Source: Stachybotrys elegans
Taxonomy: Eukaryota; Ascomycota; Sordariomycetes; Hypocreales; Stachybotryaceae
Direction of reading: 5' to 3'
Length of the DNA stretch: 64,000 bases
Assembly (NCBI GenBank): GCA_020746835.1
Contig: JAGPNK010000015.1
Location: forward strand, 496,001 to 560,000
A program made the position numbers and the translations under genes. Under the pieces are notes generated by a model, which saw nothing but the letters and a program-made list of their open reading frames with translations, was not told the DNA's origin and did no database searches. This document shows, piece by piece, positions 24,851 to 61,017 of this stretch (positions within the stretch are counted from its first letter, which is position 1; each line of letters opens with the position of its first letter).

Positions 24851-27800
24851 TCACAAGCGCATAAATGGACTTCCATGCAACACGAAGGACGCCCAGTGAA
24901 AGGGTCTCCTTGTTCGCGCCTCGCCTCGAATCTCCATTACCGCAGCCTGCAAAGCACTCGCCAGATCGACAAGATTTGCCTCATTGGGTGTATCTTCCCC
25001 CACAAGGGCTTCATCAAGCTCGTTGTAAAAGTGTTCGGAAAACTGACGCCCCGTCGCTGACGATATTGGCCACATTGTCCCCAGTACAGAGCTGGCTCCG
25101 GCACACAACAGGCCCGTCACGAGACCCAGTGGTTCGTCGCCGTTGGGACTGATGCTCTGCATGGCTGAGTCGCATGCGATCAGCGTGATGTGAGGCGATG
25201 TGTCGAATTGAAGTTTGAAGACGTCGAGAACCGACAAAGACCCGTCGGCCAAGAGCATGCTTTGTTTGACCAGGTCCTCCGGGTTGAGAATGCAGTGGCC
25301 GTGGAAATGAAATAGACTGGACTGCCGGATGGACTCTCTAAAGTTGGCCATGGTGGCATTTTCACCCACCATCGCTTCGGCTTGAATCTGGACCGACAGG
25401 CTGTCCGCAGAAGCGTATATGCGGGCCTGCTCGACCGGGGAAAAGCGAGTATCCGCTTCGTCGTTATAGACGGCGACGATCGTCTTTGCTTTCTTCCGCG
25501 GCGAGGTTGAGGGAGATGCAAAAGCGCCTCGCCAGCATTGCCAAGCGCTTGTGAGACTTGCGCAGTACACAACCGGATTGCGCAATATGAGCGGCTCGTT
25601 GTCTATCCACAAAGCATGCAGTGGAATAGAATGTAGAAGGCCTGTGGCGCATAGAACGAGAAGGTCGCACTCTTCAGAGAATTCCGCGATCGGGGCAATG
25701 AGGGCGTCGAGCTGTCGCAGACAGTATTCAGGGTCGTCCTCCTCGAGCTCAGACGTGTATATTCCGCCCATTGTTGAACCCTGCTCTCCAACGATATATT
25801 TCTCATTCCATGATTTGAGCTGTTTGTCCGTCATGACGCATGGGAATACCCGGGGTTGATCATGATTCCTGACGGACACGAGGAATAGCTCTCCATCCAC
25901 GCAAACCCAGTCCACAAAAACCACATTCGTTTGCGGAACCTCTTTCTGAGCTTGGACAACCAACCCATCGAGCTGTTGTTTTGTGACGGGGTTTCCTGCT
26001 CGCAAGTCCATGAGATCTCTCAGCGACGCATGATCTTCCATCCGCCGGTGAAGAAGATGCAGCTGGTTCCGGAGCTGTATCCTTTCGCTGCTTTCAGCGA
26101 CACTAATTCTCTCTTGCAACCCCTTCTCTTCCTCGAACAAGGCCCTGGAAGCTGGGTTCTGTTCAATATCGCTCATTAGATGGTCAGGAACGAGGACCCC
26201 TAAGCCCAGCAGATCTGAGAGGCTCCGGGCCTTTGACTTTTGCGTCCACTGCCACAACTCTTCGGTAAGCCCTCTTCGAATACAAACTCTTTGCGCCATG
26301 TCGTAGACTTCCTGCGTCTTGGCCTCGCCCCTCAATTGTCGCTTGCGGTTCAGGGCATCCACTCCTCCGAAAATAACAATATCCACTCTCTCTTCATTCT
26401 TCGCTTTTTCGGCAACAGCAAGCTGCTGTAGTAGATTCTCTGCCGTCGCCAACCCATACTCCCACGCAATATAGGTGTAGAATCCGCACCAATAAGCGGC
26501 CAAGCTGACCATGTTCGTCACGTCCAGCACTCGAAAGCAGTCGAGCGCGATGCATGTCAGTTCCAGGGCCTTATCCAGCCGGACGTGGTCCCGAGACTTT
26601 CGAAAGATCGAGAAGTGGGCCAGGGCCTGCATCTGCCGGCTGTTGCATGCTTCAATGAGCGCACCGTGCTTCATGTGCAGGGGGACAGCTTTCTCCAGCA
26701 GTGCGATTGCCGATTCCTCTAGTTCCGTATCTGGATGACGCGACACAATTTGTGACATCGCAGATGCTGCCGACTCTTGGTAAAAAGCTGCGAGCTTTGC
26801 GTCGGCCATCTTGGACGTGCCAAGAAGCGGGATCAGTTTCTCTACCTTTTCAAGGTATGACACTGCCCGTGTATCCTTTGCGCGAGTGAGCAGTCCTATG
26901 AGGGCATCCAGCTTCTCGATTGCAGCTTCGACAGCCCCGTCTTGGGTATCTTGTTCAATCACACCCCCCCATCGTTCCAACAATTTGTCCACGTCCAAGC
27001 CTCCATGAGACGAAGCGTTTAGCAGAATGATTCGCAACTCAAGAGTCGTCGCATTCGCGCGATCAGTGGACTGTGGAGGTAAGAGGGCGAGACTCCGGTT
27101 TGTCCAAGTCATCGCAGTGTCGAGGTCCCCCAGCTGAAAGAAGGCTTGAGATATTACGTGGGAAAAGAGCCCTTTCAAAGTCTGAGCTTCGTCCTTAGAG
27201 ATTTTCTCGTACAGTGGAATCGATGCCTCAATGACACGTGCAGCACGCCCAGAATGAGCAAGCCAAGCAGCAATGGACTTGAACTGAATGAGTAGTGAAA
27301 ATAATCTGGCCTGCGATACCTCAACAGCCTCATTGTTCATCTGGATGAGAGACAGCTGGAAATCAAAGTATCGTGTATCGGTCAGTGACGACTGAAGTGC
27401 CTGGAGCCCCCGAAGGAGCCCCCAGATGTAGCCTTGGTCTTCAAAAGTGCTCAGGTACTTGGCCACATTTCCGACATGCTCTTCGACGTTACCCTCTCCA
27501 GAGGCGCACTTACGACTCAGCTGGCGAATATGAATGTTTGCCGCTCCATTTACGTGACCTGCTTGATCATATAACTGCATGGCATCTCGCTCATAGACTT
27601 CGCGCTGCTGCACCAGGGCGTCGAGTTGTTCAGCGTATTCGGCTATCAAATCCAACGCCGCGGCTTTGAAGACACTGGGCATAGAGGCCGCGTTGATTAG
27701 TTGTTGTGTCATCTTGAACCAACCGGCCAAAGTAAAACCACTCGAATGTCGCCCGAATCGCGTTGAAGCAGCGACTATGTATTGACGAGCAACTATTAGG

Positions 27801-28424
27801 GCGAGGCGATATTCCTTCTTAGACATACAGGCTTCGAACATGTCGTCAACCCATGCAAAAGCTTCATGGTCAATTTGGGGGAGATGAAACTGGCTCGTAA
27901 ATAGAAGCACCTTGCAATACGTGTCTCTGAAATAAATCTGTTTAGGGAGGCCCAGTCAGTCTTTGGTGCAACCACGACGGCAAGATAAATTCGGGTTTCG
28001 ATGAGACTGTACTCACCCCATGAGCAAATTTATCATCATCTAGTGACAGCCTCTTCAGCTCTCCGTGCGCAAGTCTTGCGTCTGCGAAAGATTCCGATAG
28101 ACCTTGGAGATTTTCTCGAATCATGGGACGTAGCAGGCAAATGTTCATCCGTACCCGCAAATGGATCAAGTTTGGACCATGGCCACCAGAAGATGTTTCA
28201 AGACACTCTTCCCAGGTCTTCAAGGCTTCGGCCCAATATCCCTGAGACTGCAGTGTCTGGCCGAGCTCTAGAGCAATCTCGGCTGCGTCGACAGTCGGGC
28301 TCCCCACGCTACATCGGAGAAGCTCTGCGGCCTCCTTGTACCGGCCGTGGTCGCGGAGGTGTTGAGCTTCATCTATTGGAGTTGCAAAGCCTAAGGGTAA
28401 GGCATCAACGGCTTGAGACTCCAT
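24851..28424 (-). CDS. TPR-CHAT protein (caspase-like protease fold)
   Basis: Two exons (28017-28424 and 24851-27937, 79 bp intron) give about 1164 residues. The first 750 residues are helical with tetratricopeptide-like pairs, for example DHGRYKEAAELLRCS, SQGYWAEALKTWEECLE and FQLGDLDTAMTWTNRSLAL. The C-terminal part (about 860-1160) is a CHAT domain: LLVLCATGLLHSIPLHAL, then FHFHGHC with the catalytic His near 1015, then HITLIACDSAMQS with the catalytic Cys near 1058, followed by GASSVLGTMWPI. Both catalytic residues are intact. CHAT proteins are cysteine proteases related to caspases and separase; bacterial TPR-CHAT (Csx29) cleaves a partner, and fungal CHAT genes are reported beside gasdermin-like genes. 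Here the divergent neighbour, 316 bp away, encodes a beta-domain-lipase protein, a possible substrate (inference). Confidence 0.92.
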
Positions 28425-28740
28425 CTTGTAGTAGCAATGGGACGATCGGTTCTATACAGTCACAGAGGACACAGCATTCGGCGTATGCTTAAAAAACTTG
28501 CTGCACAACGGCTGCCCAGCTGAAAAATTGCAGCCTTTATCTCTGCACGTGCATGAATTGTCAGATAGCAACACAGCTGACCAATATCCACTCAGCATGG
28601 ATCAGCTGATTCGACCTCTTCCGTGTGCGGGGAAGAATCCGCTGCTCAGTCATAGACAAGCGAGAATATCACGATAAAGCCAGTACAATATTGGGTCGAC
28701 GCGGGTAGAAGAGGGTCAGCTCTACCATCGGCGGGACGCA
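28425..28740. promoter_or_regulatory. shared divergent promoter of the TPR-CHAT and beta-domain-lipase genes
   Basis: The two start codons (28424 minus, 28741 plus) are only 316 bases apart and read outward, so regulatory sequence is necessarily shared or interleaved. CAGCTGA occurs several times (about 28515, 28575, 28605), a possible repeated binding site; no factor is proposed. Confidence 0.5.
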
Positions 28741-31043
28741 ATGGCCGATCCCAGTTCGATGGGACGTTATGACGTTTTGCAATCGTACGAGGAACGCGCA
28801 CCAACTCTTCACGAAAGCGACGACTCGGCTACGTTGGGTCAGAAGAACTATGACGACACGAGCACCAGGACCAAGATTACGCAGGTAGGGCTGGGCCGTT
28901 TGGGAATAATGGGGACAGTTCTCTCTGTAACTTATGGAACCTGGAACGGCGAAGCAGCAGCCTGCGTCACGTTTAGGTTTGACTTTCGCTGCAAGGAGGG
29001 ACGGCTCAGGTTTGAGAGCTCGGAGGTTTGGGTTTCATTCACGGTACCGAGGCCTGGCAAGAAAAGCGCGACTGCTCGATCGGGCTTGAAGGACCCTGCT
29101 GTCTTACTCTATTATCCGCAAGATCACGTCCTGCCGTCCCCGGCTCTCTCTCAACAAAGCTCCATCCAAGAGAGCACAGGCTTTGCTGGACTTTCTCTTA
29201 GAGGCCGCACCTGGTCCAAGAGATCGCGGGATGAGCCTCATCAGGTCTTCTGGACAATGCACGAAGACAAGGCAGCTCAGTCCGGTATATCAGACGAGGT
29301 GTTTCTGTGTGTCGTCGTCAGACATTCCGGGCCTTTCCGAGCTACGGTTGAGGCTCGCGCAAAGCTTGCAATAGGAATCACTCTAGAGAACGCGCCGTGG
29401 TCCAAGGATGACCCGCTTCTGTTTGACGGGATCACCGGAAAGGGACCACAGATGGACACTCCGAAATACGACTCGCTAGACGCAGAACACTGGAGAGAGT
29501 GGTTAAGCAGCTTTAGCAGGACAAAATCATTCGCATCTTCCATCAGATCCTTTCAAAGTGCGACAAGGGAAGCGAGGGACTTGAGGGCGCCTCGTGATCC
29601 ACTGGCTTACCGCATCCGAGCCATTCCTGCCAGCTGGTCCGATACATATTTGTTGGATAAGTTGGCTGATTTGTTTCAAATGAGAGCCGGAACAAAAGAT
29701 ATCTTACTGCTCAGTTTCTCGCCGAGTGCCTTTCCGCTTCGCCATGAGCAGAACGCCGTGGTCTCGTTTCCCAGGGGCCCTCCTCAAGTCTTGACAGATG
29801 GCAAGCAGAGATGGGTTCTGGAAGTAGAAGAAGAGCCTTCAATATCAACGTCTGAGGTTCACAACGTGGAACTAGTCTTTGACATTACATTTGAGGGATT
29901 CACTCCGCTCGGGACGAATAGCAACCAGATGGGTGCACCTATCAGTGCTGAGTGAGCGATCCACTCTCCCCCCGATGCTTTTACTATCGCTTCAGCGGCT
30001 CGATTTTCAGCTTTTAACCTCTCTATAGCATCATTGTTGTTCCAGGTCTAGGCGGCCACGCGTATGGATCCTTCAAGGAAAGGGGCGGCTCTTACATGTG
30101 GCTTCAAGACTCCCTGGCCAAAGACATCCAGCCAGAAGTACCTACAACTGGGGTCGTGCGAGTTCTTACATATGGCTACGAGTCCCGTGTTGCAGAGAGC
30201 CACTGTTTCCAGACACTCTGGGATCTCGGAGGAAAGCTTCAAGCATCGATACGCGAGATTCGTCCGGTATGGGAACATCCTTGTCAGCGGCGTCCTGCAG
30301 TCAAGGAGAGAACTGACAGAATGGTGTTTGCACATAACAGATAAAGCGGCCTATTATTTTGATCGCGCATAGTCTTGGCGGCTTGGTCGTCAAAGAGGTA
30401 CGCTAGTCTATCGCTTGCTTTGAAGCCCTTCGACTTGGCATTAACAAGAACCAGGCAATCATCCGCATGAGTATGGGTGATCAAAAAGACAAGGACGATC
30501 TGAAGAGCATAGTCGGCGCCTTATTTTTTGGCGTGCCAAACAAAGGCATGGACATAGTGTCTCTCATACCTATGGCCGGTGAACAGCCCAATCGTCCATT
30601 ACTGGATTCCATAAGCATAGGCTCAAGCCTGCTACAGACTCAAATCGAACAGTTCGAGACCGTTTTCCCCTTTCGAGACTCCAGCATCATTTCCATACAC
30701 GAGACGATGTTATCACCGACAGCTATTCATGTAAGTCCCAGGTGGCTGGGCGCCTATTAGGGCTCATAATAGGGGCTAATATTCTCCTTAGGATGGCTCA
30801 AAGTGGTCCATGTCCGGCCCACCCACCGTCCTTGTTGACCGCGAATCTGCAACCCATGGTCGATCATGGGAAACGTCGGGCAGGTTCGTTTTAGGCTTGA
30901 ATAGAAATCACTCAGATCTGGTCAAGTTCAGCCGTAGCTCCGATGACTATGAACTTGTGCTTGGGTATTTGCGAGACATGTTGTTAACTGGGGAAAATGT
31001 CGTGGCTGCACGATCTCAGGAGAACTTGCAGCAGATAAAATAA
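28741..31043 (+). CDS. unnamed beta-rich domain fused to an alpha/beta-hydrolase (lipase-like)
   Basis: Five exons (28741-29951, 30029-30266, 30341-30397, 30455-30730, 30792-31043) give about 677 residues. Residues 50-260 are beta-rich (TVLSVTYGTWNG, CVTFRFDF, EVWVSFTVP, VFWTMHEDKAAQSGISDE) and match in order the stand-alone protein at 60034-61017. Residues about 290-395 resemble the linker that precedes lipases in fungal proteins called LipA/NB-ARC (YRIRAIPASWSDTYLLDKLA). From 404 follows an alpha/beta hydrolase: IIVVPGLGGHAYGSFKERGG, then the nucleophile elbow IAHSLGGLVVKE (Ser about 494), then GALFFGVPNKGM. No NACHT or repeat region follows, unlike the usual architecture. It could be a membrane- or lipid-directed effector held in check until activated, with the adjacent CHAT protein as an obvious candidate activator. 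Domain calls are firm for the hydrolase only. Confidence 0.85.
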
Positions 31044-31117
31044 TATTATTGCTAGGCAGGAAGTCAACATCCCTCCCCTACAGATTTAGAGCAATAGCCT
31101 TATTACTATCTCCATCA

Positions 31118-31723
31118 TCAGGCAACCGCCATCACACCACTAATCTTCGAAGTTCTAAGCAGCCTTTTGTATCCTTCCAGTTGAGATATTCCAACTACAA
31201 TCAGTTCCTCCACGGTCTTCGGCTCAATTTTCTCCTTCCAAATGCTAATGACTCCATTCATCTGCCTATGGTCGATAGTCACCGACAACACGAGATTCTG
31301 TTCGTCCCTCAACTCCCACGAAGCCTCTCCATACGGCACCATGCTTGTTGGTTTCCAATGCAACCGTCCAAGGCCGCCGCTGGACTCGTAAGCTTCCTGG
31401 CTACCTTTTATCTTGATAACGTGATCGTTGCGCGAGGTAAAATTAATCTCGGTGGACGGCGGTATGCTGTGGAAGTCCATCCAGGCGATTTCCTTGTCTG
31501 CCTCGCGTGGCGATGTGACGAAGTATTTGTCGCCCCAGACCTCGAGAACTGTCTTTCTCCTCACCGCGTAGCAAGGTTCTGTATCGCCCACTGCCTTTAA
31601 GATTCGACGATGATCACCAACATCAGTGTAGTGTATTTCCAGAGATGGTTGTTCGTTGTTGAGTCGTGGGTCGGGAATTAGAGGGTCTCGTACAATGAAT
31701 TTTTCGAGCCAAGCTGGAGCCAT
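31118..31723 (-). CDS. LURP-one / Tubby-like beta-barrel protein
   Basis: One exon from ATG 31723 gives 201 residues including MAPAWLEKFIV at the start; an in-frame ATG at 31831 would add 36 residues that look like untranslated leader. The order of strands fits the LURP-one-related (Tubby C-terminal-like) fold: VLEVWGDKYFVTSPREADKE, IAWMDFHSIPPSTEINF, VIKIKG, ASWELRDEQNLVLSV and ISIWKEKIEPKTVEELIVVG, with the closing helix and strand. Proteins of this fold are small, often bind membranes or phosphoinositides, and have no known catalytic activity. The gene ends only 75 bases from the 3' end of the converging lipase gene. Family assignment is moderately sure; the role is unknown. Confidence 0.7.
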   Translation of the reverse strand: MAPAWLEKFIVRDPLIPDPRLNNEQPSLEIHYTDVGDHRRILKAVGDTEPCYAVRRKTVLEVWGDKYFVTSPREADKEIAWMDFHSIPPSTEINFTSRNDHVIKIKGSQEAYESSGGLGRLHWKPTSMVPYGEASWELRDEQNLVLSVTIDHRQMNGVISIWKEKIEPKTVEELIVVGISQLEGYKRLLRTSKISGVMAVA

Positions 31724-32237
31724 GGTTGAGGAAGTCTGGATTGGATGCCTGTGTTTCTTTGATAGAATCTGGATAGGATCGAGTTTAAAATGCGTCAAGT
31801 CTGATGGCCTTTGTTGAAAATTGAAGTACATAGGCTGTCGTCTTGCTTTTAATAGTCCACCTGTGCATAGCTTAGTATAATGAAGAGGTCATAGCATCAG
31901 TGAGCGAAATGACGAATGGAGACCGGCAGCCCTGCCAGGCTGAGAGGAAAAGAAGGGTCCTCCTCTAATCTCATGCATTCCACAAGAGCGTCATTCCTTC
32001 AAGCAAGGATCTGTCGTAGGGCTATGACAAGCGCCCCAGTGAGGTTGACAACGAGTGGACGCCAAGCCAGCGATACAGGGCTCATCAACTACATATGTAC
32101 ATATCTTTCAAAGGAGCTCGAAGATGCCCCTGAATCATTGAACCCCTTGGCAAAACTTTTCCAAACTGAGATCCATGGATATTGGAGTCAGGGTCACGGA
32201 CAAATGACCGGTATGATAAAGAAAAGAGTGTTCAGTA

Positions 32238-32492
32238 TCCCCTTGAGTGTGATAAGGCGACCTTTAGGTTACAGACAGGGGTTTTGTCCAATAAAATTAC
32301 AGAGGAAAATCGTGACTTTGATTTCATAAGAAATTAGGCTATAGTAGAAGTTCCTACATTCCTGCCAGGTATATATAGCTACACTGCATATATGATAGCC
32401 TAATAGAGAGTCAAAATCACTCCTTATACTGACCTAAATCAAGGGGTATGTGGGTCAAATACATGAAGGTCGCCTTATTACACTCAAGGGGA
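32238..32492. mobile_element. second MITE-like element, 27 bp terminal inverted repeats, TA flanks
   Basis: TCCCCTTGAGTGTGATAAGG at the left end (from 32238) reappears in reverse complement at the right end (to 32492) with a single difference over 27 bases, and TA lies on both outer sides (32236-32237 and 32493-32494). The 255 bp body has no coding capacity. The ends differ from those of the element at 2413-2793, so these are two families. Confidence 0.65.
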
Positions 32493-32764
32493 TAAGGTAT
32501 AAGCAGTAGAGAGCAAATAAACAGTGGGGTGGTGCCTAGTGCCTCAGCAACCAGTGCAGTCGTAAATAGTAGAGAGAAACAACAACAAGGCCATCGTCAG
32601 GCGCGCAGGGTAGTCGAGTGGCCGAGTGGCCGAGCTCCAGGTGGCAGCGAGCGCCGTCACAAGCCACACATGCGTAGGCATGTGACGCCACGGGATCTCG
32701 AGCTGGCCTCAATGACCTGTATAAGCTTTAAAGTAAACAGACGATAAAATATCTCAACATACTC

Positions 32765-32870
32765 ATTGTTTGACTCTGTTCTTTGGTTCTGCGGGCAGCA
32801 AGGCCACTATTGTTCGCGTATACTATTGTTCTTTTTTCCACACCACACGCACCTACACCATCATATTTTC
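32765..32870. repeat. dispersed repeat, copy 1
   Basis: About 100 bases including TTTGGTTCTGCGGGCAGCAA and GGCCACTATTGTTC match 41700-41785 with few changes; this copy carries an extra 16-base run near 32818 that duplicates ACTATTGTTC. Probably the remnant of a retroelement end; the parent element is not recognisable here. Confidence 0.6.
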
Positions 32871-34011
32871 GCCACACTAGCGCTTGAAGCATGCCTGCGC
32901 GTTTCGGCGGAAGCACCTCCACTAGATGGGCTGTCCAACGCCATGCGACATCTCGTTGTGGCTTTTGTATTTCTAACACCACCGTCACCTCCCTTCTTGA
33001 GCCGAGATTGTTTCCCTTGCTCGAGACCATTGTACTTTGCGGTAAAGCGTTGACGCCATGCATGCTAAGACATGGATGGGTAGAGTAAAGATCTGCAACT
33101 GGTAGAGCCCTGTTGAATGCCCCGTCTTCTCTGCTATCAATGGTTCACAAGTAAGCGGCTGAACCGGTAGCGAGCTGAATCAACGACGATGTGCTTATAC
33201 CCCTTGGGGTCATCGGATAGCCATTAATAGGAAAGCCGCTGCTGGCCATCCATTAGCTCAAATACCCTGCAAGACACCGAACACCCTTGTTGATCCTTGG
33301 TTCAGCCCGGAGCCTTGAAGTTGCATATGCCGAACAGCTGACCTCATCCGGCGGGACAATAGTGTACTATAAGACATGCATGAGGGGGCGTCGATATCGC
33401 TCAGCACAGCTGAAAGTCCCTCATTGTAGGCGAGGCTGCCATGTCTATGAGAAGGACGAAACAGACCAGGAAGGCCTGGAAAAATACTCCAAATTCGGAC
33501 AGCAATCCCTAAGCCAGCCCTCGATCGGCAGGACTACATCCTAGTAGGTGCTGCTGACGTGCCTCGGTGGCTTGCAGTAGCCTGTGATCTAGACCACCGA
33601 GGTTTCAAATTATTGGTGAGCCTCCACAGACCGAGACGCATCATCTCGACCAATGTTCAAGTGCCCTTTAGGCAAAGCTCAGCCCGGCAGCTGTGCCAAG
33701 TAATATGTGTCCACTGATCTTCACCAGGCATATCTCCGCGCTCATCACGCGGAACTATGCAGGAGGCTCCCGGCTGACCGCCCCATCAGCACACATCCTA
33801 AATGGAACTAATGATGCCTAAGAGACGGCCAGAGCGGGCAATCAGGCAGCCAATCACATAGCACGGACGACCAGCACCGTATGCAACGACGCACTGGTCA
33901 GCCGCCGAGCACACGGCGGTTGAAATCCTGATTCACCACCACCTTTTCTAACACAGCGGGAACTTTGGTGTCAAAAATTTCACAGGGCTACATTGTATCA
34001 GGGCATCCATA

Positions 34012-34722
34012 ATGACGGACTTGTTCGTGGGGCCGACTATCAGCGCTCTTTTTGCAGCAATCAAACTGACGGAGGTATCCGTCAAGCTCAAGAACGTCCC
34101 CCAAAGTGCAGCGACTTTCATCCAGCTGGTCAAGCAGGTCGACATGGACGTGGAACATGCCCTCCGATGTCACATCCATGCGGCAAAGATCCTTGAGCAA
34201 TATCCCGAGTTCTACACCAAATGGATCTCGAGTACAATCAATGCGACACTGGGGGCACTGAAGGAATTGAACGACTTTATTCTCAGGGACACGGGCAAGG
34301 ATTTTGCCGCCAGGCTGGAGTATCTCTTTTCTAATCACGCCAAGCTTGTTGATCAGGAGAGGATGCTGAGCTATGTTCATTCGACGCTTCTATCGGCCAT
34401 AAATGCCATGCACCTCCTCATTTTCCGAGCTGAGTCGATAGAAGCATCTCCGACGTCCTTCCCAACGCCATCATCATCGCTGTCTCCAATGACGCTGTCG
34501 CCGATACCGACTCCTCCGATACTGCGGCGCTATTCGCGCCATCGCCCTCCAACAAAAGAATCGTCACAACCAAGTGAACAGTGCAATCCTTACGAGAATT
34601 CGCCAGATTTACACTCCCTCTCTGAGAGCGCAATCGCACGGCAGAATCAGACTGCAGCAGACTCCAAGGCTGGTGAGGAAGAGAGTGCAAACAACCGAAT
34701 TGTCATCAAGCTAACCCTCTAG
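34012..34722 (+). CDS. hypothetical helical (HeLo-like) protein with Ser/Pro-rich tail
   Basis: An intronless frame of 236 residues from ATG 34012. Residues 1-145 are almost wholly helical with heptad-like spacing (ISALFAAIKLTEVSVKLKNV, FIQLVKQVDMDVEHALRC, INATLGALKELNDFIL, LEYLFSNHAKLVDQERML, SAINAMHLLIF). This resembles the N-terminal helical bundles of fungal death-fold or NLR-associated proteins (HeLo-like), but the match is by pattern only. The tail (about 150-236) is rich in Ser and Pro, with no domain seen. Such bundles can act as membrane-disrupting effectors when triggered. It has no NACHT domain downstream, so it may be a stand-alone effector or the front part of a lost larger gene. 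Role unknown. Confidence 0.55.
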   Translation: MTDLFVGPTISALFAAIKLTEVSVKLKNVPQSAATFIQLVKQVDMDVEHALRCHIHAAKILEQYPEFYTKWISSTINATLGALKELNDFILRDTGKDFAARLEYLFSNHAKLVDQERMLSYVHSTLLSAINAMHLLIFRAESIEASPTSFPTPSSSLSPMTLSPIPTPPILRRYSRHRPPTKESSQPSEQCNPYENSPDLHSLSESAIARQNQTAADSKAGEEESANNRIVIKLTL

Positions 34723-35211
34723 TTTTAACAGCGGAAGCTAGCCTTCGATGGCTTCAGCAGAGCAGGGAGAGCGAAATATCCGAACTTGACGACATGAGTA
34801 CGGAGTGACAGAATCGGACGATTCTGCTGTGTTCATGGCCACAAGCCCTAATGAGAAGGTGATATGTCGTTAGAACCAAGGACTCTAGGGCTGTCCGTAC
34901 ATGTTATTTGTTTATTCTATTTTTTTTTACTCGCTGAGCAACCCATTCCGTCTCAAGGGGGCGGGGGGACTTGCCTAGGACTGGGACTGGTCTACAGTTT
35001 AATGATTGTCTTTGACTTAGCTATCAAGAGGGGGCTCCCTGTCATGGCTTGCAATCAATTGCGTACAGTTCTTAAGACGGATCGCGAGAAATATTGGCTA
35101 AATAAAAGGCTGTACCGGCAAGCGTTTGGAAGCCCTGACGGGTGAATAAGCCACCCGAATTCCTCCACTTCCAAGACGAAATTTGAAGCCTTAATACAGT
35201 ACATCGGAAAG
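34723..35211. other. intergenic region, convergent 3' ends
   Basis: About 490 bases. A frame at 34864-35145 starts with a hydrophobic run (VICLFYFFLLAEQPI) but shows no family and no conserved structure; left unannotated. Confidence 0.35.
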
Positions 35212-36559: not shown

Positions 36560-37069
36560 TGCAAGTGATCTGAATATGGGTGAGGATAAGAAGTATGATG
36601 ATGAAAGCATCCGTCACGCACCAGTGTTTGAATGGAGAGATGAACGGAGGAAAACCAGCCGCGTCTCAAGTGGCGGGTGGCAAGATCCCGGTTCCAGTTC
36701 TCTTGTAAGCTTCCCCTGTTCCCTGATGACTAGCAACTAGGTGAAAGATCGGCGAGCTGAAATGCAGCTGAAATGCAGCTGAAATGCATGTAAAATTAGT
36801 ACATATTCCAGCCTTGTTTTCAGAACGACCGCTTCACCCCCCTCACCAGTCACCCTGTATGAGTTGCACCCCCAATCTATAGTGAGCCCTTGGCACAGAC
36901 CCTACCTAAGTAACAAGGCAGCCAATGAAAAACTCTCCTCCTGCAGCCATTCCACGCCCCATACCAAGATACAAGACAGAAGGCAGGGCCACTCTACTCT
37001 TTCACCTTGCCAAGGTGGCCATACTCCTCCACAACTGACTACACCACCGCAAACCTGTTTCCAACGATA
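36560..37069. other. divergent promoter region of membrane-protein and Hsp70-like genes
   Basis: About 500 bases between outward-reading genes. A short tandem repeat CTGAAATGCAG lies near 36757-36785. No gene. Confidence 0.4.
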
Positions 37070-39485: not shown

Positions 39486-39886
39486 ACGGATTATATTAGG
39501 AGTAGCTAGGAACTCATACATAGGCTGTCAAACAAAACCGTATCACCTCTCTCGACAAAGCATCAACCAGTAGGCACGCGACGGTTGATGGCACAAAACC
39601 CACACAGCCACAGACTTACTTTATCGCCGAATTTGCAAAAAAAGATTGGTGCCCCTTCAGCCCGATCTTCAATGGCATGCGAGCGTCGATGAGAGAGCTC
39701 ACATATTTAGTAATTCGAACAACTCGACCAGATGAAGCATCGAAAGTTGGGAGGTTTCGTCAGGGAACGGGCATGAATTTGCTGCCGAGCCTCCACACAG
39801 CCACATAGGAACCCAGCACGAGCTTATGGTATTCTTTGACTTAATTCACACTTAATGAGTCTTTGGATGACCTTTTTTTAGATGCT
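39486..39886. other. intergenic region before the P450 relic
   Basis: About 400 bases. May contain further decayed N-terminal sequence of the P450 relic, but no frame could be followed. Nothing else seen. Confidence 0.35.
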
Positions 39887-50502: not shown

Positions 50503-50620
50503 CTATTCAAGCCATCAAAAAATCCAGCATCATTCTTTATCACATATTGGCCTGTAGCTCCACATAGGAACAGCATTATTGTCCTATTATTATATCAGCT
50601 ATCAGGACCCTGTTCTAGCC

Positions 50621-50800
50621 ATCCACGGTGCCTGTTCCGAAGAAGACAAAGACTGGCAAGTGAAGTTGAGGAGCAGCTGTGTTGAAGAACTACTTTCATT
50701 CTTTACCTAATTCCATGTCACAAATTCTTTTAAACCCCCGTGTCCTGCGCCACCCTTTGTCATGAGTAGCTGTCCCTACCACCATAGCCCTTTCCACAAT
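50621..50800 (+). repeat. copy of the 3' end of the ABC-transporter gene
   Basis: Bases 50621-50683 nearly repeat 47847-47909, including the last 12 codons, the stop and 16 bases of 3' flank (GGTGCCTGTTCCGAAGAAGA, then GACTGGCAAGTGAAGTTGAG). Weaker similarity goes on to about 50800. Only the tail is present; no transporter body is found upstream. Confidence 0.85.
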
Positions 50801-50801
50801 G

Positions 50802-53800
50802 TCAATCTCTGTACATCTCCGATGGTTCGACGTTCGAGGAGAAGCCAAAAATTAGAACCTGCCCATCCGCACACCCAAGAGCAACATTGTGTCCAAATAC
50901 GAGCGTCTTGACCACATCGTAACATCTAGGCACATAAATTACCTTGCGGTCGTTCCAAATGATCCACACATCCTTATCATCTTTCTCACCCTCGCACAGG
51001 ACACTGTAAGGGGCCCAGGAGGGCTGTTGGTCCTGGTTTGGCGCAGTCACGCCGTCTATAATCGGAATTGCCCTTGCCCCAAGGTCTGTCATGATGTGGC
51101 TGCTGTATCTTGGGTCGTGGCGTAGTCCTTCATAGATGTGCTTTGTTTCGATTGGACCACTCACTCTCTCCCCTTTTGTTATATCCCAAATCATGATTCT
51201 GCTGCCACTGCATGCAGACAGAATAAACTTGGACCCGGGAATGAAGGCGACGCCCACGACCTCATGTCTATGGCCCTCTAGAGCAGGGAACCGAAGGGAA
51301 CAACTTTTCAGGTCCCAAACCATGATTGTACTGCCGATTCCTCCAGACACTAGAGTCTGTCCATCGGGGGAAAAGCAGACAAATCTGACATACCCCGCGT
51401 AGTAACTCCACAACTCCTTGCTATTCGACGCATCTTCCAAGTCCCAAACTCGAATCTCAGGATTCTGAGATACCGATGCCACGTAGCGTCCGCAAGGTGA
51501 AAAGGCCGCGTGTACGACATGGCCTGTATGCTTCAACTTGTGAAGAGCTTCTCCATCGTTGACTCTCCATATTTTGACACTCCTGTCAGACGAAGATGAT
51601 GCTAGTAGGCTACCATCCGGCGAGAATGTGAGATGACGAATATAATGGCCGTGTGGCATCTCTTTTTTCCCCTCCAGGAGCTGTCCTGTCTTGGCATCCC
51701 AGAATCGAATTTGACCTCTGCAAGCTGCTGCAATGCAACTCTCATCAGGAGAGACCGCGAGGGCTTCGGTTGGGCCATCTGTGTGAACAACACCGGAGAC
51801 GGATGTTGCAGCCCTTTCATTGTGCCAGAACTTGACAGTAGCCCCTGTTGATGATGTGGCAAGGTACTGTCCGGCAGGCGAGAAGGCAACACATAGCGGC
51901 CTTCCTCGGTCTATAAACGCGGCCTTGATTTGGCTGCTCTCGATATCCCATAGCTTGATCGCGCCGCCTTTATTGGTCGAGGCGAGAGCGGTGCCATCGA
52001 AGGAGAATGCAAGGGACAAGAAAATGCCCCAGTCGTCTGACTTGGCGGAAGTAAGAACGGAATGCTGCTTGCCCGACTCAATATCCCAGATTTCGATTGA
52101 GTCTTTCGCCAAGGCGAGGCGTCTCGCGTCTTTAGAAAAGGCTAGGCATGAGCCCCCTGAGGGTAGAGACTGGAGGACTTGGAAGCTGTTGGTGTCCAGT
52201 ATTTCCACCACGTCGTCGTACATGCAGGCGGCTAGTGCACCGTCATGTGAGTACTTTGCACTCCTTACGCGCCTCGTAGTAGAAAAGTTGTGTTTTTGGC
52301 GAACGAAGGTCGTCATATCCCAGGTTGAAAACGGACGGCTAGATGCGTCCACGACAAATAACCTTTTGCCATCCAGCGAGAATTCTAGGGCTAGGATCGT
52401 TCCCATGTGATCAAATTTCACAAACAGCTGCGCAGCGGGGAGGCTCCAGATATAAAGGGTGGCTTTGTTCGAAGCCGAGGCCACAAAGCCATGGGAGATG
52501 CTGACGAGAGTGACCCAGGCATCGTGGCCTTGAATCGCCTGTTGAGTCGTCCCGGTCTCAACATCCCATATCCGCACAGTCCTGTCGTCGCATGCTGAGA
52601 CCAACAATTTTCCATCGGGCGAAAACTCAATGTCTCCTATCCAGTCGGAGTGGCCTCGCAGCTCCAAGAAAGGCTCCTGCTCTGGTATCATAGGTCTTAA
52701 AGTAACACAGGAAAAGTGTTTTGCCAGGGAGTCTTGCTTGCCTCCAGTACTGTCTGGGCAAAACAGGAAGACATCCGCAGTTGAGGCCGACCGACGAGTT
52801 CCGAGTGCGTAGACGCTCGAAAGCCGGTTTGCGTCTCGCATGAGAGAAATCAGATTGCTCTCCGACCCCAGAGTTCTCTAGGTGATCCAGTCAGCTGCCA
52901 CATGCAAGTTTTAGTACGGCGAGGCAAACGTTACCTTCCACAATAATAAAAGTGCGCGGCATTGAGACATTGCCAAACCGAGCTGTCCCAAGTCTTTCAT
53001 CGCTCCCAGCCACTTTAACAGATGCTTTTGGAGGAACCAAGAGATGGACGCTTCCGTCTCAGGATGCATGGAGATTTTCGAAATCTCGCTGGCATGCTTC
53101 ATCCAGTGAGACAACGCATAGATGACTGGCGTCAATGATTCCTCTACCGTCAATACCATCGCTGCATCGCCGTGCTGGTTTTGGGGGTTGCTGTCAAAGA
53201 AGTCGGAAAGGACATCAAGACACCTTTGGATAAGAAACAGGTGAAGATATTCCGAACCCCCATGTCTCGATTTCGCCATTTCTATAGCATGATCCTTGGA
53301 CAACTGGTGCAAAAAGTGAACGGATTTGCCTCGCATCTCGAGAAAACCGTAGCAGCTCGTCAGCATGTCGGTCACATGAACCCACTGCGGCAGCTGAGCT
53401 AGCGTTGCCAATTCGTCCACATGCAAAGGTCGATACACGGCAGCGGCAATTGAGAGGATCCTTCTGCAGTTTTGGGGGTCTTGGTATGGAAGTTGGTTAA
53501 TCCGTGTGTCCAAGTAGGCAAAGAGATCCTCGAGGCCTCTTGGGGCCTCACCAAGAATCTCAAGGACATGCCGTGGCTCTGTCGTACGTAGCATATGGCA
53601 TGCTACGCGAATCCATGCGTAGTTACCCCCAGAACGATCCAAAATCAGCTGCTGGACCTTGTCTCCCAGCGTGGTATCGTAGCGCCTTTCTCGGGCAAGG
53701 GAGCGTACATTGCGGGCGACGGACTTGTCGAAAACGCCAACCATGGACTTGGCCTCGGTATCCAAGCTCAAGTGAAAATCTCCCTTAGGTGTGGCACGAT

Positions 53801-55715
53801 CTGGATCAGTGGAGGCTAGCCATTTGATTCGTGGCGTCACCTGGCCCGATGTCTCTATGAGCTGCATGAGATGACTTGATCCCACGCACTCGTCGACTGC
53901 ATCAACCACCAAGTACGTCTGCGGGAGGTTGCTGTCTTCCAAGATGTCGTAGAAAAGACGTGATAGAGCTAGGAAGTCATTGGCATGATTGAAGTGCTTT
54001 CGTCCCGTCGAACGGCGGAGGTTTTCCAAGTGAATGTGCAGCGCGGGCTGCTGAAGCAGCATCGAGCAGATGAGGCTCTTGATAACAGAAGCAGCTGAGC
54101 GTGAGACGGGCCCGCCGGCGCTGGAAAAGCAGTGCAACAGACGTGGCGAGTCTGGAGCGTCTTGCGCCTCCGCCAAAAGGTTCTGCACAACAGTTGCCAA
54201 CAGCGTCGACTTGCCACTGCCCGGGCGGCCGGTGATCCAGAGCGTTGTGGCTTCCTGGTTGTTCCAGTCGCGGAAGTGTTGGTACTGGTCGGTTGAAACA
54301 AGCCACCGGTATGCTTCTTGGTTTACTTGGATCGAGCTGCTGACCAAGTCGAGCCTGGGATCGATGGCATCCAAGTCGGCAAAGACCTGACCCTCTTGGT
54401 GGCTGTGACTCGACTTGTTGGCAGAGCAGACAGAAGGCTGCCGGTGGTCTGGAGAGTCTAAAAGTTGATTGAGTCGGTGCTTGAAGTCGTGGCCGAGGGA
54501 GGCAGCCAAAGATTGTTCGGCGTCAGATATGGTCGACGGATCGGATGCTGGCAAGTCGGGCGGGCCTCGAGCGAAATGAATCCGCTGGGTCCCGTGGTGG
54601 CGGCATACGACGGTGATAAAGAAAGTCAAAACGCTTTCGTAGAGGCCAACAAGATGGGCTCGAAGGAGCATCAACTGCTCTTGGTCGAGGTGGGCGTGGT
54701 CGCTTTGGTGGTTGGCCGTGGCCAGTCGGCTCAGCTGCATGTACCATTCCATCTTTGTGACAAGGTTGATGGTGATGCTAGAGCGGTCGTCGGCGGACGG
54801 TTCGTTCAACTGTGCCTGGGATAGTGTTAGCAGCCGCGTCCCAAGCTAAACAAACGATGGGACTCTTGCCTCCAAGGCGGTGCAGGCCGCGACCCAGCCA
54901 AGGACGGCTTCAGGCGTTCGCTCCATCTTCTGGCGAAGCGAGGGCTTCGGCAAGAAGACATGCTCAACATGATGGCCCTGCTTCAAAGATGCCGCGGATT
55001 TGCCGAGCCAGTCTCTCAAGACCAAGCCCATCTGTAAGCGCCTTGCCGACGGACTTGTTGAGAAGACGGAACTTTCACTTAGGGCACAAAGTAAGAAGTA
55101 TGCGTCATGGCCGAGTCGGGAGTGCAAGATCCTCTCGTACCATGCGACTAGACTAGGGTTGCGAGCTCTAAGTCCATCGTAGGCGTCGTCCCACAGTGCT
55201 CCCAGCTCATCGCTTCTCGGGGAGGGAGTCGGTGTTGCATCTGCATTGGCATCTGCATCTGCATCGGCATCGGCATCGGCATCTGGATCAGCATCTTGAT
55301 CAGCATCTTGATCAGCATCTGGGTCAGCATCTGGGCCAGCATCTGGGCCAACATTCGTGGGAGTTGTGGTTGGCGCTTCCTCGTCAACATTGGGCGAAGC
55401 AGAGGCAGAAGCTACGACTAAGGCTGAGGCTTCCTGTTTGTCGACCTCCTCCTCCTCCTCCTCCTCCTCCACTGCTGGCGACAAATTCTCCACCGCGTCT
55501 TGGTCTGGGGCGTTTTCTTCCGCGCACATCATCGTCAACGGCGTCGAGGAAATCGGGTCAGAGACGTGGCCCTCGGGCTTTCCATCTTGCTTGGGAGCCT
55601 CGTTGCCCGTCTCGGTCGAGCCGCTCTGCCTATGCGCGTCATGGGAGATGGCAGCGCCGTGCTGTGAGTTGCTCCTCCTCAGTCGCCGCCTCAACCTTTT
55701 TGCGAGTGAAGCCAT
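50802..55715 (-). CDS. NACHT_N-NACHT-WD40 NOD-like receptor
   Basis: Three exons on the minus strand (54870-55715, 52935-54815, 50802-52877) give about 1600 residues. The start MASLAKRLRRRLRRSN is followed by a low-complexity Asp/Ala stretch, then LWDDAYDGLRARNPSLVAWY, the hallmark of the NACHT_N region of fungal NWD proteins. The NACHT domain has Walker A GRPGSGKST near residue 478 and Walker B TYLVVDAVDEC near 583. From about residue 930 come around a dozen WD40 units (LRGHSDWIGDIEFSPDGKLL, VRIWDVETGTT, HYIRHLTFSPDGSLLASSSS). The first intron appears to have a GC donor (GAG|GCAAGA). This is the HET-D/HET-E type layout of STAND receptors, where WD repeats sense and the N-terminus signals. 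Its N-terminus carries no known death effector, so it likely works through a partner; the divergent S8 gene is a candidate. Confidence 0.93.
55235..55335 (-). repeat. low-complexity hexamer repeats coding for Asp-Ala runs
   Basis: GCATCT, GCATCG and GATCAGCATCTT-type units repeat about 15 times and encode alternating Asp, Ala, Pro and Gln in the receptor's N-terminal linker. Adjacent to it an eight-fold CTC run (55450-55470) encodes a Glu run. Both are likely to vary in length between strains. Confidence 0.75.
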
Positions 55716-56162
55716 GGTAAAAGATGCAGTGTAGGAAGAAGGATGACGGTGTTTCGCAGCGTCGAGATGCGTCGCTGCGGGGATTTGCCAGGACGCGTGA
55801 CTCGCGGTCCGTGTTGCCAATGTCAGCAAAGAAAAGCAACGCAGGCCATGGGACATTGGATGATGGGTGCTCAGTACGGTGCCGCCCGTCCCAAGCGCCG
55901 ACCAACTGCTTGCGGAACCTCGTAGGCTCCTTGCGACACAGGTGATCAGCGGCAACTTGCATGGCGAGGCTGCCAACTCGTTTACTCTCGAGGTACAAAG
56001 ACAAATGCGCCAGAAATGGGCTCCAGCTTGTAGTACAGTTTCTCTGCCGGAAGGTTGTCTTCGTCGATCGTGTTCCGTGCATTCTAATTGACGTTTCCTT
56101 TCCCTCCTTTCAACCGTCGCGCTTCGTTCCACTCTGCCCTGCTCCTCAAAACTGGCTCGAAC
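55716..56162. promoter_or_regulatory. shared divergent promoter of the NLR and ankyrin-S8 genes
   Basis: The start codons (55715 minus, 56163 plus) read outward, 447 bases apart. The right-hand part contains the left arm of an inverted repeat whose other arm lies inside the S8 coding region. No certain TATA box was found. Confidence 0.5.
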
Positions 56163-56276
56163 ATGGCAAGCAACTGCCCTTTTATAGCAGATTGTGGCGC
56201 GGATACTCTTCAGAATGCATGGAATACGATCCACCAATACAAACCTTCGGCAGAGAAACTGTACTACAGGCTGGAG
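56021..56276. repeat. inverted repeat enclosing the start codon of the ankyrin-S8 gene
   Basis: Arms at 56021-56085 and 56212-56276 are reverse complements at about 85 percent over 62 compared bases, for example GTAGTACAGTTTCTCTGCCG in the left arm. The 126-base loop contains the ATG at 56163. Read on the minus strand the left arm keeps AEKLYYKLE, against AEKLYYRLE in the gene, so it looks like a relic of an inverted copy of the 5' coding region. Confidence 0.85.
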
Positions 56277-59200
56277 AACGCCATGATGAAAGCCCAAAAG
56301 ACGCTGTCTGAAACTGAGCTTACGAGCCCGGAACAGACCAGTCCCAATGGCGATGCTAGCCATGACGAGGAGTCCTGCCCGAAGGACGCACTTTTTCAAC
56401 AACTAAAGGCATTTCTCGACTGGGGAGACCGCGTAGGAGTCAATCGTATTCCAATCCTCTCCCAAGCAGTCAAGGATTACCAGACCTCTCTCCCATGGAA
56501 TAGCCCGTCAAATGACCATTCGAAACATCTCTCGGGTTCGGGGACTTCGACATCGGCTCTGCCAGCTCTGGACCAAAAAGAAGACGACGACCAATACAAT
56601 GGCTCCGGAAAGACACCCCAAGATCTTCCTGCCTACAGTATAGCGCTGGCACTGTGCCAGGTCGATCCCACGCTGGCCTTTACAGGGTTCGATAATGAAA
56701 TGACACCGTTTCATGCCGTAACAGATGCGGGGCTCATTCCGCTCTTAGAGATCATGCTAAGCGGACTGGACAACTATGAAGGAGACGTCACCAAGCACAT
56801 ATGCGTCGAATACAACGAAAGAATAGCGCTCCAGATGGTGACAGCCACAAATCCACCCCGTCTAGATGTCCTCAAGTTGTTGCTAAGCAAGTTTGCGGAT
56901 ATGGTCGACGTCGAGAGTATCACCTCGACGATACAAAAGACCAGTCCCAAAGATGAAGGAAAGGCAGACGCTACTCTAGAGGCTTTCAACATGCTCGCAG
57001 AGGCCGGGGGTGTTTTCAGACCCGAGCGGACCCCGCACGATGACAAGGTATGGGAGCGGGCCATCAAAGTCGGTTCTATGAGTGTGTTGAAACGACTTCT
57101 TCAGCCCGACTGTTACAACAAGTTCGCTACGTACGAAAATGCAAAGCTAGGCATCGAGATTGGAGATTTGTGGTTGTGGAAGCTGTTCGACAAGGACACT
57201 CGGAAAATCTTCATGAGCAGACCTGGGTGCGACTTCTTGCACGTGGCGGTGCGGAACCAGAGGCAGGATATGGTGGCCTACATGCTAGACGAATTCCCAG
57301 CACACGCCGGAGTGAAGGCTCCCAACTATCCTTTGCAGAATCTCCCCCCAAAGGGCCGCAGCAAGGACGATGCCACATTCACTTCTATTCGCAACGACCT
57401 CATAGCTGCCATGATATGGAACAGAGACTTGAGCATCCAGGATATTCGCAAAGTCCTGAAAGACTCCCAAAGTATGTGACCAATGACCCATGGAATGGAA
57501 GAAATATTAGAAGCATAGTGGCTAACCGATTGCAAATAGTTGACGGTACGAAAGCAACGCAGTGAAATGAATTCCTCTACATTACTGTAGTGTCGCTGAC
57601 TTTGAACATCAGCAAGTCAAATGTGCCTCCATCTGGCTACGGTAGATACCTCGGAGCGCAGTTTCTCCGACTACGTCCAGTTTCTCAACTCTTCCGAGAC
57701 CGAGCAAAGGTCCTTCTTCAAATTCGAGAGCGTGCTCAAGTATGCTTGGTTCCCCAATCTCAGAACCCCATCCTCCCCCAACAATGCGCTGCCACTCGGA
57801 AACAAACGGCTTGAGCACGCGGAGATTCAAGTTGTGTACAAATGGTTGAAAGGCCTCGGAGTCACGAAGGTAATGGAGGTTTCGGTCCCCGACCGGCTGG
57901 ACACTCCCCACTCGGACGACGTGGTAGCCGAGTGCGTAAACGGGTGGGACACTAGGATTCTCAAATGGAAAAAGCTGGATCTATATCTCGGCAACCTCTA
58001 CCCTGGCGGCAGCGAGGACGAAGATAAGCTGGAAGAGCTGGAGCTCTATAGTAGCGGTAACCGTTCGGTGCATGATCAGTGGTATAAGCAGCTGGAACGC
58101 TTCAAGAAGGTGAGGCGAAACCACAGTGGCCATCCAGGTTCATTGTCACTGACAGGGAAATTGTAGTTGCGAAAACTCTCGGTCTGGGTGGTCAAGGTGA
58201 GTGAGCCCGTGCTATTCATCTTTCCTTTTATTGCTTTCTAAGCATCAGAGGTCGGGTGAAGGGCTAATGATTGGCACGTCTAGGACGTGATGAGCGATGC
58301 CCGTGCGGAACAGGTCAAGGAAGAGCTTGAAAATGGACTAGCCCTGGTAAAGAAGCGCTTAGAAGAACAGCATTCGGGGAGGTTCGCCGAACAGGACCAC
58401 GACCCTGACAACCAGCCATTCACGCTGGACAGCTGCTTCTGGGACAGCAACCTGTCCTATGTTGTTCCGACTAATCTCGAAGATATGTATGTGTTTCCCC
58501 CACAGCCTATTCTTCAGACCTTGGAATACTTATCCTATGATCCGAGCAGTGCGGTGAAGACAGCCTGGCCGACACTCGACGCATTTACCCAGGCTTTCAA
58601 AAACCACTCACTCGCCAACGGCGCCCCCAGAACAAAGGTTGCAATCATAGACAGCGGAGTGGTAGTTTACGGGGGCCTGAGCGAGATCAACTCGTCGAGC
58701 AGTGCAAACCCCGACAAGGACCTTGCCCATCGGATTGTCGACGGGGTGTCACTGGTGAGTAGTGGCAACTCAGAGGAGCCGTTCTGGCACGCCACCGAAC
58801 CGCACGGCACGCAGATGGCAAAGCTGATTAGCTCCATCAACCCGTTGTGCGAGCTCTACGTGATCAAAGTCACCGAGACCAGAGCCGCCGGCGTATCGGC
58901 GAATAACGTTGCTGCCGTAAGTACACGACACACTCCTTGGAGCAGTCTGCACATACTTAGCATCACCAGGCCGTCGAGTGGGCGCGAGAGAAGGAGGTGG
59001 ACATCATATCACTCAGCCTCGTGGTGCACCAGGATAGGGACCAAAATCTGGCGCGCGAGATCATCCTAGCCAAGGACAAGGACATTGTGATACTATCGAG
59101 CACGGCCGACGGCGGCATGCGCAACGAAAACACAACTACGAGCGCCGACAAGCCGGCCCACAGAGATGTCATCACTATTGCAGCTTCGGACTGGAACGGC

Positions 59201-59563
59201 AACGTGCTCGATAAGAGCCAGAAGACGGGCTACAACTACTGTATAGTTGGAGACAACGTCCCCGTCGGCCTCGTGCCGTTCCTCAAGTCCCGCGAGGTCG
59301 TCAGCGGGAGCTCCGTGGCGACGGCGCTCGCTGCGGGGTTGGCCTCGCTGATTGTGGCCTGTTGCCGCATCTCGGCAAACTGCAACACGGAAGGCGATGC
59401 CAAGTGGCGCTATAGAAAGGTCATTGACACGATGGAGGCCATGAGCATCGGGGGGATGCCTCCCAAGTGGGTGGACCTGGACAACTTTTGCGGCAAGGGG
59501 AAGCAGCTCGGCGGGCAATTTCAGTTTGAGCTGTTTGTGGATAGCAACTTCAAACTTCCTTGA
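56163..59563 (+). CDS. ankyrin-like protein with C-terminal subtilisin (S8) protease domain
   Basis: Exons 56163-57471, probably a 6-base exon at 57540-57545, 57613-58109, 58167-58196, 58284-58916 and 58970-59563 give about 1022 residues. The tiny exon does not change the frame, so a single longer intron is an equal option. The N-terminal part (about 140-440) has weak ankyrin-like units (MTPFHAVTDAGLIPLLEIML, LHVAVRNQRQDMVAYMLDEF). The C-terminal third is a peptidase S8 domain with all three catalytic residues: Asp737 in VAIIDSGVVVY, His788 in EPHGTQMAKLI and Ser940 in SGSSVATALAAGLASLI. There is no signal peptide, so it should act in the cytosol. Repeat-plus-subtilase proteins in fungi are linked to incompatibility, where HET-Q2 cleaves a gasdermin-like partner. 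The next gene downstream encodes the beta-rich domain and is a candidate target (inference). Confidence 0.9.
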
Positions 59564-60033
59564 GCGCTACCTTTAGAACGTGGAGTTGGGAGGGCATCAA
59601 CACAATGAAATGCCATATGCTTGGCAAGTGGACTACAGACTCTCTCCATCCATTAATGGCGAACTTGGTGACTCCAAGACTCCAAGACTCCAAAAGCTCA
59701 GCGCCATGTACCGACAAGTACCGCTTATCGAAGCGAGGTAGCAGCACAACGCCAACAAGACTCGTATGACAGGCCAGGGGGTAGAGTAGGAACGGCCCCA
59801 CCAGGCCGAGGGGGACGCCCAACCAGGTGACTGCCGAGGAGGTTTGATAAGGCGAACTGCATCCAATAATGAATGCAGTGTAATGAGGCTCAGTGAGTGA
59901 TGGAGGGGGGCCGGTGTCGAAAGCGAGCAACACAGGAGTTGAAGTACCTACTCCCTATGTGGCCTTATAAGCACTTGAGCACACAATCTCGCCATGGCGG
60001 TCTGGGTCTAATACCGAGCTATCCCAATACATC
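59564..60033. other. intergenic region between ankyrin-S8 and beta-domain genes
   Basis: About 470 bases. A TATA-like CTTATAAG lies at about 59963-59970, 65 bases before the next start. No gene seen. Confidence 0.4.
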
Positions 60034-61017
60034 ATGGAGACCGACGATTGCTTCTACCAAGAGCTCGACACCGACTTCAGTCGCAGCCTCGGCGAGCTGA
60101 AGACGGACAACCCGGACGACGACCGGTTCCAGCGACAATTCGTGCACCTATCGCCCGTCAAGTCCAAGTTCAAGAAGACGGTCGAGACGGTGCTCTGCGT
60201 GCACGGGCAGAAGAGCGAGGCGGAGCCGGGGGTGCCCATGACGCTGCTGGTGCTCGGCGTGCAGCTCAACTGCCACGGGCGGGACTTTCGCTTCCAGTCG
60301 GTGACGGTGCGGCTCGAGTTCGGCGAGGACGACAAGGCGGATCTGCCGAACGCGGCGCCTGCCAATGCAAAGGTCGTCGCGTTCGCGCCGTGGGTGCAGG
60401 AGCGGCGGTGGAACCAGAGCGATGCGAGCATCACTGATACGAAAGGCGGTGGCGCCGCGCTGGGCGTTGAGCAGATGGCCAAGGCGGAGCTGAGCGCGAC
60501 GTTGGAGCGCCAGATTGCCTACACGCGGACGCATTTCGACCGGGGCACGGCAAGCCGGCTTGCCGACGAACGCACTGGTAGAGTCCATGGAGTCGAGTGG
60601 TACTGCGAACAGAACAAGCTCCAGAACCTCGGCGTCGAGCCCTACTTCCTCCTCGCCGTGCTTGTCGAGCGTGCTTCTGCGGCTGCTACCTTCAGCGCCA
60701 CGTACAACATGCGCATCGAGGCTGGCTTCATGTACGATCTGCGGCAGGGCATACGCACCGCCTTTCGTCTCCGCCGTCCCGAGGACGCGCCGCTGTACTA
60801 TGATCCGTCCCGGCCACCCCAAGCCAATGGGTTGGAGGACAAAGGCATCAGTCTACTCGCCAAGGTCGATCCGAAGAATCTTGGTGCCCTGGCTGCTGGG
60901 AGTCAGTTGAGTAAGATTCTGGATCCGGACGAGGGTTTGCGTTTGTCTGCTTTTGAGCCGCTTCAACCACCGAAGGCGGCTGGCGATGACGGGGAAGAGT
61001 ATGCGGACGATGCGTGA
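60034..61017 (+). CDS. stand-alone unnamed beta-rich domain protein
   Basis: An intronless frame of 327 residues from ATG 60034. It contains the same succession of motifs as residues 50-260 of the lipase fusion at 28741: a strand pair ending in a phenylalanine-rich run (CHGRDFRFQSVTVRLEF), a VVAFAPW strand, a long variable part, then VEWYCEQNKLQNLGVEPYF with W at about 189, a hydrophobic strand (LLAVLVER), an alternating strand (FSATYNMRIEAGF) and DAPLYYDPS. Length and composition suggest a beta sandwich with a helical insertion; no catalytic motif is seen. The C-terminal 40 residues are acidic. It follows the subtilisin gene on the same strand. High third-position GC suggests good expression. 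No name is known to me. Possible roles are effector, regulator or protease substrate. Confidence 0.75.
   Translation: METDDCFYQELDTDFSRSLGELKTDNPDDDRFQRQFVHLSPVKSKFKKTVETVLCVHGQKSEAEPGVPMTLLVLGVQLNCHGRDFRFQSVTVRLEFGEDDKADLPNAAPANAKVVAFAPWVQERRWNQSDASITDTKGGGAALGVEQMAKAELSATLERQIAYTRTHFDRGTASRLADERTGRVHGVEWYCEQNKLQNLGVEPYFLLAVLVERASAAATFSATYNMRIEAGFMYDLRQGIRTAFRLRRPEDAPLYYDPSRPPQANGLEDKGISLLAKVDPKNLGALAAGSQLSKILDPDEGLRLSAFEPLQPPKAAGDDGEEYADDA

Follow-up and report, generated by a model that had tools for sequence, protein, structure and literature searches.

Do two genes of Stachybotrys elegans (Hypocreales), each lying beside a protease gene of a different class, encode members of one effector family, and is that family distinct from the gasdermins? 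The window, a stretch of 64,000 nucleotides within contig C7 of the 43.4-Mb assembly, contains both genes where the first-pass annotation had placed them. The genes, designated 60034 and 28741, and their neighbours are as follows:

60034..61017, plus strand: stand-alone β-domain protein of 327 residues, in a single open reading frame (ORF)
56163..59563, plus strand: ankyrin-like and S8 protease gene, apparently with several exons; candidate activator, from its S8 match
28741..31043, plus strand: fusion of β domain, RRM-like region and α/β hydrolase (677 residues in P0019), with introns; the last coding ORF is 30792-31043
24851..28424, minus strand: TPR-CHAT-type protease gene in divergent orientation to the lipase fusion; candidate activator, from a CHAT match of 124 bits

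Our reading, to which we give slightly less than an even chance, is that these β-domain proteins represent an undescribed family of protease-switched effectors other than gasdermins, in which the stand-alone members are probably pore-forming and a lipase replaces the stem in the fusion.

A shared β domain

Direct BLASTP comparison of the 28741 and 60034 proteins detected no similarity (E 2.3). Profile-profile comparison with hhalign was carried out between the 60034 family (A1; 18 sequences, including that of the window) and the 28741 family (A2; a 14-row alignment, in which two rows are the window's own protein). It aligned 201 columns at E 2.2e-7 and a probability of 93.5, showing that the 28741 protein, in its N-terminal ≈240 residues, shares one homologous β domain with the 60034 protein, as the first-pass annotation had proposed. 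When the profiles were trimmed to the domain, the score was 69.9, while column shuffling (100 times) gave at most 21.7 and reversing the profile gave 17.1. The ordered motifs on which the proposal had been based share columns when 20 sequences (7 rows of the 28741 family and 13 stand-alone rows) are aligned jointly: VFW/VEW, GISD/GVEP, VVVR/VLVER, FRAT/FSAT and DDPLLFD/DAPLYYD.

A third protein, L021 (described below), matched the 60034 protein by BLASTP at E 1e-6, and the profile of its family (A3; 34 aligned sequences, from 146 homologues found and 120 listed) matched A1 at 1.8e-18 and A2 at 3.3e-11. By sequence comparison, the L021 protein thus bridges the 28741 and 60034 domains. In the proteins tried, Pfam and NCBIfam searches to E 1 matched nothing in the β domain apart from one NDT80 match in P0003 (13.7 bits, against a cut-off of 27), which was below threshold and taken as noise.

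Protease genes beside the β-domain genes

The first-pass annotation had described the 28741 gene as divergent from a TPR-CHAT gene and the 60034 gene as following an ankyrin-S8 gene. The arrangement and the protease identities hold, while the TPR and ankyrin parts fall below the cut-offs. The CHAT domain of the 24851-28424 gene was clear (124 bits, E 9.7e-36; C7:520869-521708), and all of its TPR matches were below cut-off. In the 56163-59563 gene, the S8 match (C7:554955-555356; 28.4 bits) was above cut-off and the ankyrin matches were below; its ORFs contain IIDSGV, HGTQMA and GSSVATALAAG, which we take to be the D, H and S sites of an S8 protease. The 60034-61017 gene starts ≈470 bp downstream of this gene on the same strand.

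The third copy, L021 (P0032, B0I35DRAFT_396956, contig C4), was found when 20 stretches surrounding protease genes (17 S8, 3 CHAT) were scanned with a hidden Markov model (HMM); its stretch was the only one of the 20 to contain the β domain. Downstream of L021, on the same strand, is a gene that has S8 exons (one scoring 42.5 bits) and sub-threshold ankyrin matches; this S8 part is distantly related to the S8 of the window (BLASTP E 4e-7). Because L021 had been found by looking beside proteases, the whole genome was also searched with homologues. Queries P0147 and P0127 each gave C4, C7 twice and C32, for a census of three intact copies and one fragment; six other queries gave one copy apiece and added nothing. 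The matches to the 28741 copy (E 0.003 and 0.15) and to C32 (E 0.03 and 0.05) were weak, so that more diverged copies could be missed. The C32 fragment (C32:53705-53905, within the 117-residue ORF L024:6702-7055, C32:53702-54055) corresponds to the C-terminal half of the β domain and was confirmed by HMM (A3, E 1e-10; A1, E 2.5e-6). By eye, it precedes an apparent ankyrin-rich gene with a hydrolase-like stretch. No β domain was found by HMM near the other CHAT genes (two on C18, one each on C34 and C19; 10-kb stretches L003-L005). For about 45 further S8 genes, by our grouping of the 88 S8 matches, the coverage is that of the whole-genome protein searches, less sensitive than HMM.

An S8 or CHAT gene thus adjoins all three intact copies, or three of four places when the C32 fragment is counted. 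Relative to the 88 S8 and 5 CHAT matches in the genome, 1.3% of genome positions lie within 3.1 kb of a match, 1.9% within 5 kb and 3.5% within 10 kb. The chance of finding three of three beside a protease is therefore 2.3e-6, 6.9e-6 and 4.1e-5, respectively, and that of at least three of four is 9.1e-6, 2.7e-5 and 1.6e-4. The 3.1-kb limit was chosen after the distances had been seen, and all of these figures assume uniform placement, which accessory regions may violate. Within this genome, then, the domain lies beside proteases beyond chance.

Predicted fold and candidate stem

In AlphaFold structure predictions, the fold of the β domain is that of the haemolysin-type pore formers: the β-sandwich cap fold was found in the models, and haemolysin-type pore formers ranked first in VIA-align for both the 28741 and 60034 models. 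The corresponding parts of the genes are:

60154..60825, plus strand: haemolysin-like β-sandwich of the 60034 protein, residues 41-264
60409..60531, plus strand: low-confidence insert with an alternating segment, residues 126-166; candidate pre-stem, based on the predicted local distance difference test (pLDDT), the alternation and the lack of a counterpart in the lipase-fused clade
28864..29445, plus strand: β domain of the fusion, residues 42-235; haemolysin-like sandwich with no stem-like segment, based on the predicted model, VIA-align and the joint alignment

The segment lies between the strand that ends near residue 125 of the 60034 protein and the strand that starts at residue 168. In the L021 family, hydrophobic and polar residues alternate here over up to 10 hydrophobic positions. 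Alternating runs of at least 4 occurred in 66 of 119 sequences of this family, taken from the 120 listed (13% in shuffles), in 8/17 of the 60034 family (11% in shuffles) and in none of 13 of the 28741 family (5% in shuffles), a count that says little alone. Gaps in the anchor columns had led to one sequence of the 120 and one of the 18 being dropped. In the joint alignment, the segment is present in all 13 stand-alone rows and absent from all seven rows of the 28741 family, where a gap or a linker, variable and in part Ser-rich, takes its place. Such an absence from the fusion clade would be expected if the segment is a pore stem, dispensable once a hydrolase is attached.

Proposed mechanism and alternatives

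In the mechanism that we propose, the family members would act as effectors in the fungal cytoplasm, with a haemolysin/leukocidin-like β-sandwich as their scaffold. Effector and repeat-bearing S8 or CHAT protease would form a two-gene unit. By analogy with gasdermin/protease pairs, the neighbouring protease would sense a trigger and, once activated, cut the effector, within the conserved C-terminal tail of the stand-alone proteins or in the linker of the fusion. The alternating segment of the stand-alone proteins would then insert into the membrane as a β-hairpin stem, and the oligomer would open a pore by which the hyphal compartment may be killed or sealed off. In the fusion clade, where the segment is gone, the attached lipase-like α/β hydrolase would be the harmful part. 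The evolutionary form of this proposal, in which a haemolysin-fold pore former was turned into a cytoplasmic death effector under S8/CHAT sensors, parallel to the gasdermins, and one lineage swapped its stem for a lipase, is more tentative, at perhaps one chance in three. The first-pass annotation had suggested a new class of protease-controlled effector; a single domain, a non-gasdermin sequence and protease neighbours beyond chance in this genome are borne out, and the protease control itself is carried by the analogy.

Several observations weigh against this reading. The mean pLDDT of both models was 63-64, and the candidate stem was of low confidence in the 60034 model (pLDDT <50 at residues 125-166). 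TM-scores of the first Foldseek matches were ≈0.2, and the 50 Foldseek rows for the 28741 model, headed by YcnI, included no haemolysin. VIA-align re-ranks only the first 1000 chains from Foldseek, and its rows are the best 50 per model; many of them repeat a handful of toxins, and the fit was at 8-11 Å in many, among them the top row for the 60034 model. Alternation in the 60034 family is modest, with a median run of 3, and is no weaker in the core strands than in the segment; the counts are not independent trials, because the family members are related. Segment lengths also overlap, with 37-72 residues in the fusion family and 58-79 and 76-78 in the others. Finally, the neighbour evidence comes from this one fungal genome, and the contig of the C32 fragment is without any S8 or CHAT match.

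We considered the possibility that the β domain is a protease-sensing or inhibitory module (a docking, bait or ligand-binding sandwich) rather than a pore former, and that the protease releases or recruits another activity, namely the fused lipase in one case and an unspecified partner in the others. The 13 proteins of the 28741 family do retain the domain while lacking the alternating segment, and Ig-like sandwiches, in addition to YcnI, were among the first Foldseek matches of the 28741 model. However, nothing else in the stand-alone proteins looks like an effector part, and the first rank of haemolysin-type pore formers in VIA-align applied to both models. We regard this alternative as rather unlikely. 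Less probable still is a coincidental neighbourhood, with both kinds of gene occurring in accessory, NLR-rich regions and the β proteins having some unrelated function. A NACHT NLR gene is indeed present in the window, the apparent ankyrin-rich gene after the C32 fragment is without a protease, and the chance figures rest on uniform placement; however, the three intact copies adjoin protease genes of two different classes, at a chance of 4e-5 within 10 kb, or 2e-6 within the post hoc limit of 3.1 kb. That the proteins are very diverged gasdermins, which would make the pairs unremarkable examples of the known fungal clusters of gasdermin and protease genes, is highly improbable: the S8 and CHAT neighbours are the same, but none of the three profiles A1-A3 matched a PDB sequence up to E 10, and Pfam searches of the proteins tried, to E 1, gave no gasdermin match.

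Comparison with known systems

Membership of the gasdermins was accordingly rejected for lack of sequence support, consistent with the first-pass impression that these proteins do not look like gasdermins; by sequence they are not recognisable as such. Gasdermins were also missing from the best 50 VIA-align rows per model (re-ranked from the first 1000 of Foldseek), an absence that excludes nothing. According to passages of two reports (PMC10197012, PMC12881547), ≈80% of fungal gasdermin/protease pairs are clustered, 63% with S8 and 19% with CHAT, and passages of the same reviews treat protease-switched pore formation in fungi as gasdermin-based. The likeness to fungal gasdermins with HET-Q2-like S8/CHAT partners (the HET-Q1/HET-Q2 type), as presented in those passages, lies in the pairing of an effector gene with one for a repeat-bearing protease, S8 or CHAT, as a two-gene unit. 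The β proteins described here differ from the gasdermins in having no sequence match to them, a predicted fold nearest the haemolysin-type toxins, and one clade that is fused to a hydrolase.

The haemolysin/leukocidin-type small β-pore-forming toxins comprise Epx, NetF, NetB, delta-toxin, the leukocidins and Vibrio cytolysin. Compared to these, the β proteins are fungal, have an adjoining protease gene and show no sequence similarity that we could find (no leukocidin match up to E 1 in Pfam or NCBIfam, and none among PDB sequences); the predicted likeness of fold concerns the cap sandwich. Judged by eye, their N-termini look polar and acidic in the alignments, with no evident signal peptide. 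No intracellular haemolysin-like effector of fungi was described in the titles and abstract openings listed from the open-licence literature, and the word "hemolysin" was absent from three fungal immunity papers in a word search (PMC12881547, PMC12258605, PMC10197012). Among the papers listed, the nearest case is an aerolysin-family killer toxin from yeast (PMC12691639). The hydrolase part of the 28741 protein resembles the α/β-hydrolase effectors of fungal NLRs (DUF676, SesB-like), at scores below the Pfam cut-offs; it differs from them in being preceded by the new β domain and an RRM-like region, and in having a CHAT gene as neighbour.

If our reading is correct, a second, unrelated effector family would stand under the same two protease classes, and the protease side of the pairs would be modular. 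A toxin-type fold would serve inside the cell, possibly as a new kind of fungal cell-death switch, and this could help to account for S8 and CHAT sensor genes without an adjoining gasdermin.

Relatives in other fungi

The nearest relative of the L021 protein among the matches listed was from Arthroderma (Onygenales; 85%), and those of the 60034 protein were from Clonostachys (82%) and, second, Byssothecium (Pleosporales; 68%). With relatives this close in other fungal classes (P0033 and P0003; Onygenales at 85% and Pleosporales at 68%), horizontal spread or patchy loss is suggested. The distribution is patchy, a pattern often seen for immunity and incompatibility genes. With P0147 as the sole query, searches for prokaryote and viral relatives gave 39 and 6 pattern matches, none of which was confirmed. 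At least 8 of the 120 listed homologues of L021 (≈255-307 residues, with no recorded Pfam domain) are named intracellular serine protease:

P0041, P0044, P0063, P0078, P0092, P0102, P0120 and P0129

This suggests that the names were carried over from adjoining or fused gene models, which would be weak evidence for the same neighbourhood in other fungi.

The lipase fusion and other features

The product of the 28741 gene is P0019 (B0I35DRAFT_442232, S. elegans, 677 residues), with 100% identity across the 404 residues searched. Its hydrolase part matched Abhydrolase_6 (22.8 bits) and DUF676 (14.7 bits), both below the Pfam cut-off. Among 13 members of the 28741 family, the hydrolase is whole in six and represented by its start only in one; the other six gene models stop before it. 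The RRM-like region (29602-29883, residues 288-381 of the 28741 protein) sits between the β domain and the hydrolase; the label reflects the strand-helix order in the predicted model, and no family match was found. A related stretch occurs on the same contig (C7:147242-147559, E 8.5e-5); it was set aside as a further copy of the β domain, since it matches only the RRM-like part of the query.

Contig C21 (L008, L023; C21:15001-33000) carries two S8 genes, one of them related to that of the window (42.6% over 136 residues), and no β domain was found in these stretches by HMM. A 281-residue ORF (L008:1291-2133) was entertained as a possible gasdermin and dropped, having no Pfam or PDB support. 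The NLR gene of the window, a further gene of immunity type, lies at 52911-55727 on the minus strand and has a NACHT_N domain (Pfam NACHT_N, NPHP3_N and NACHT).

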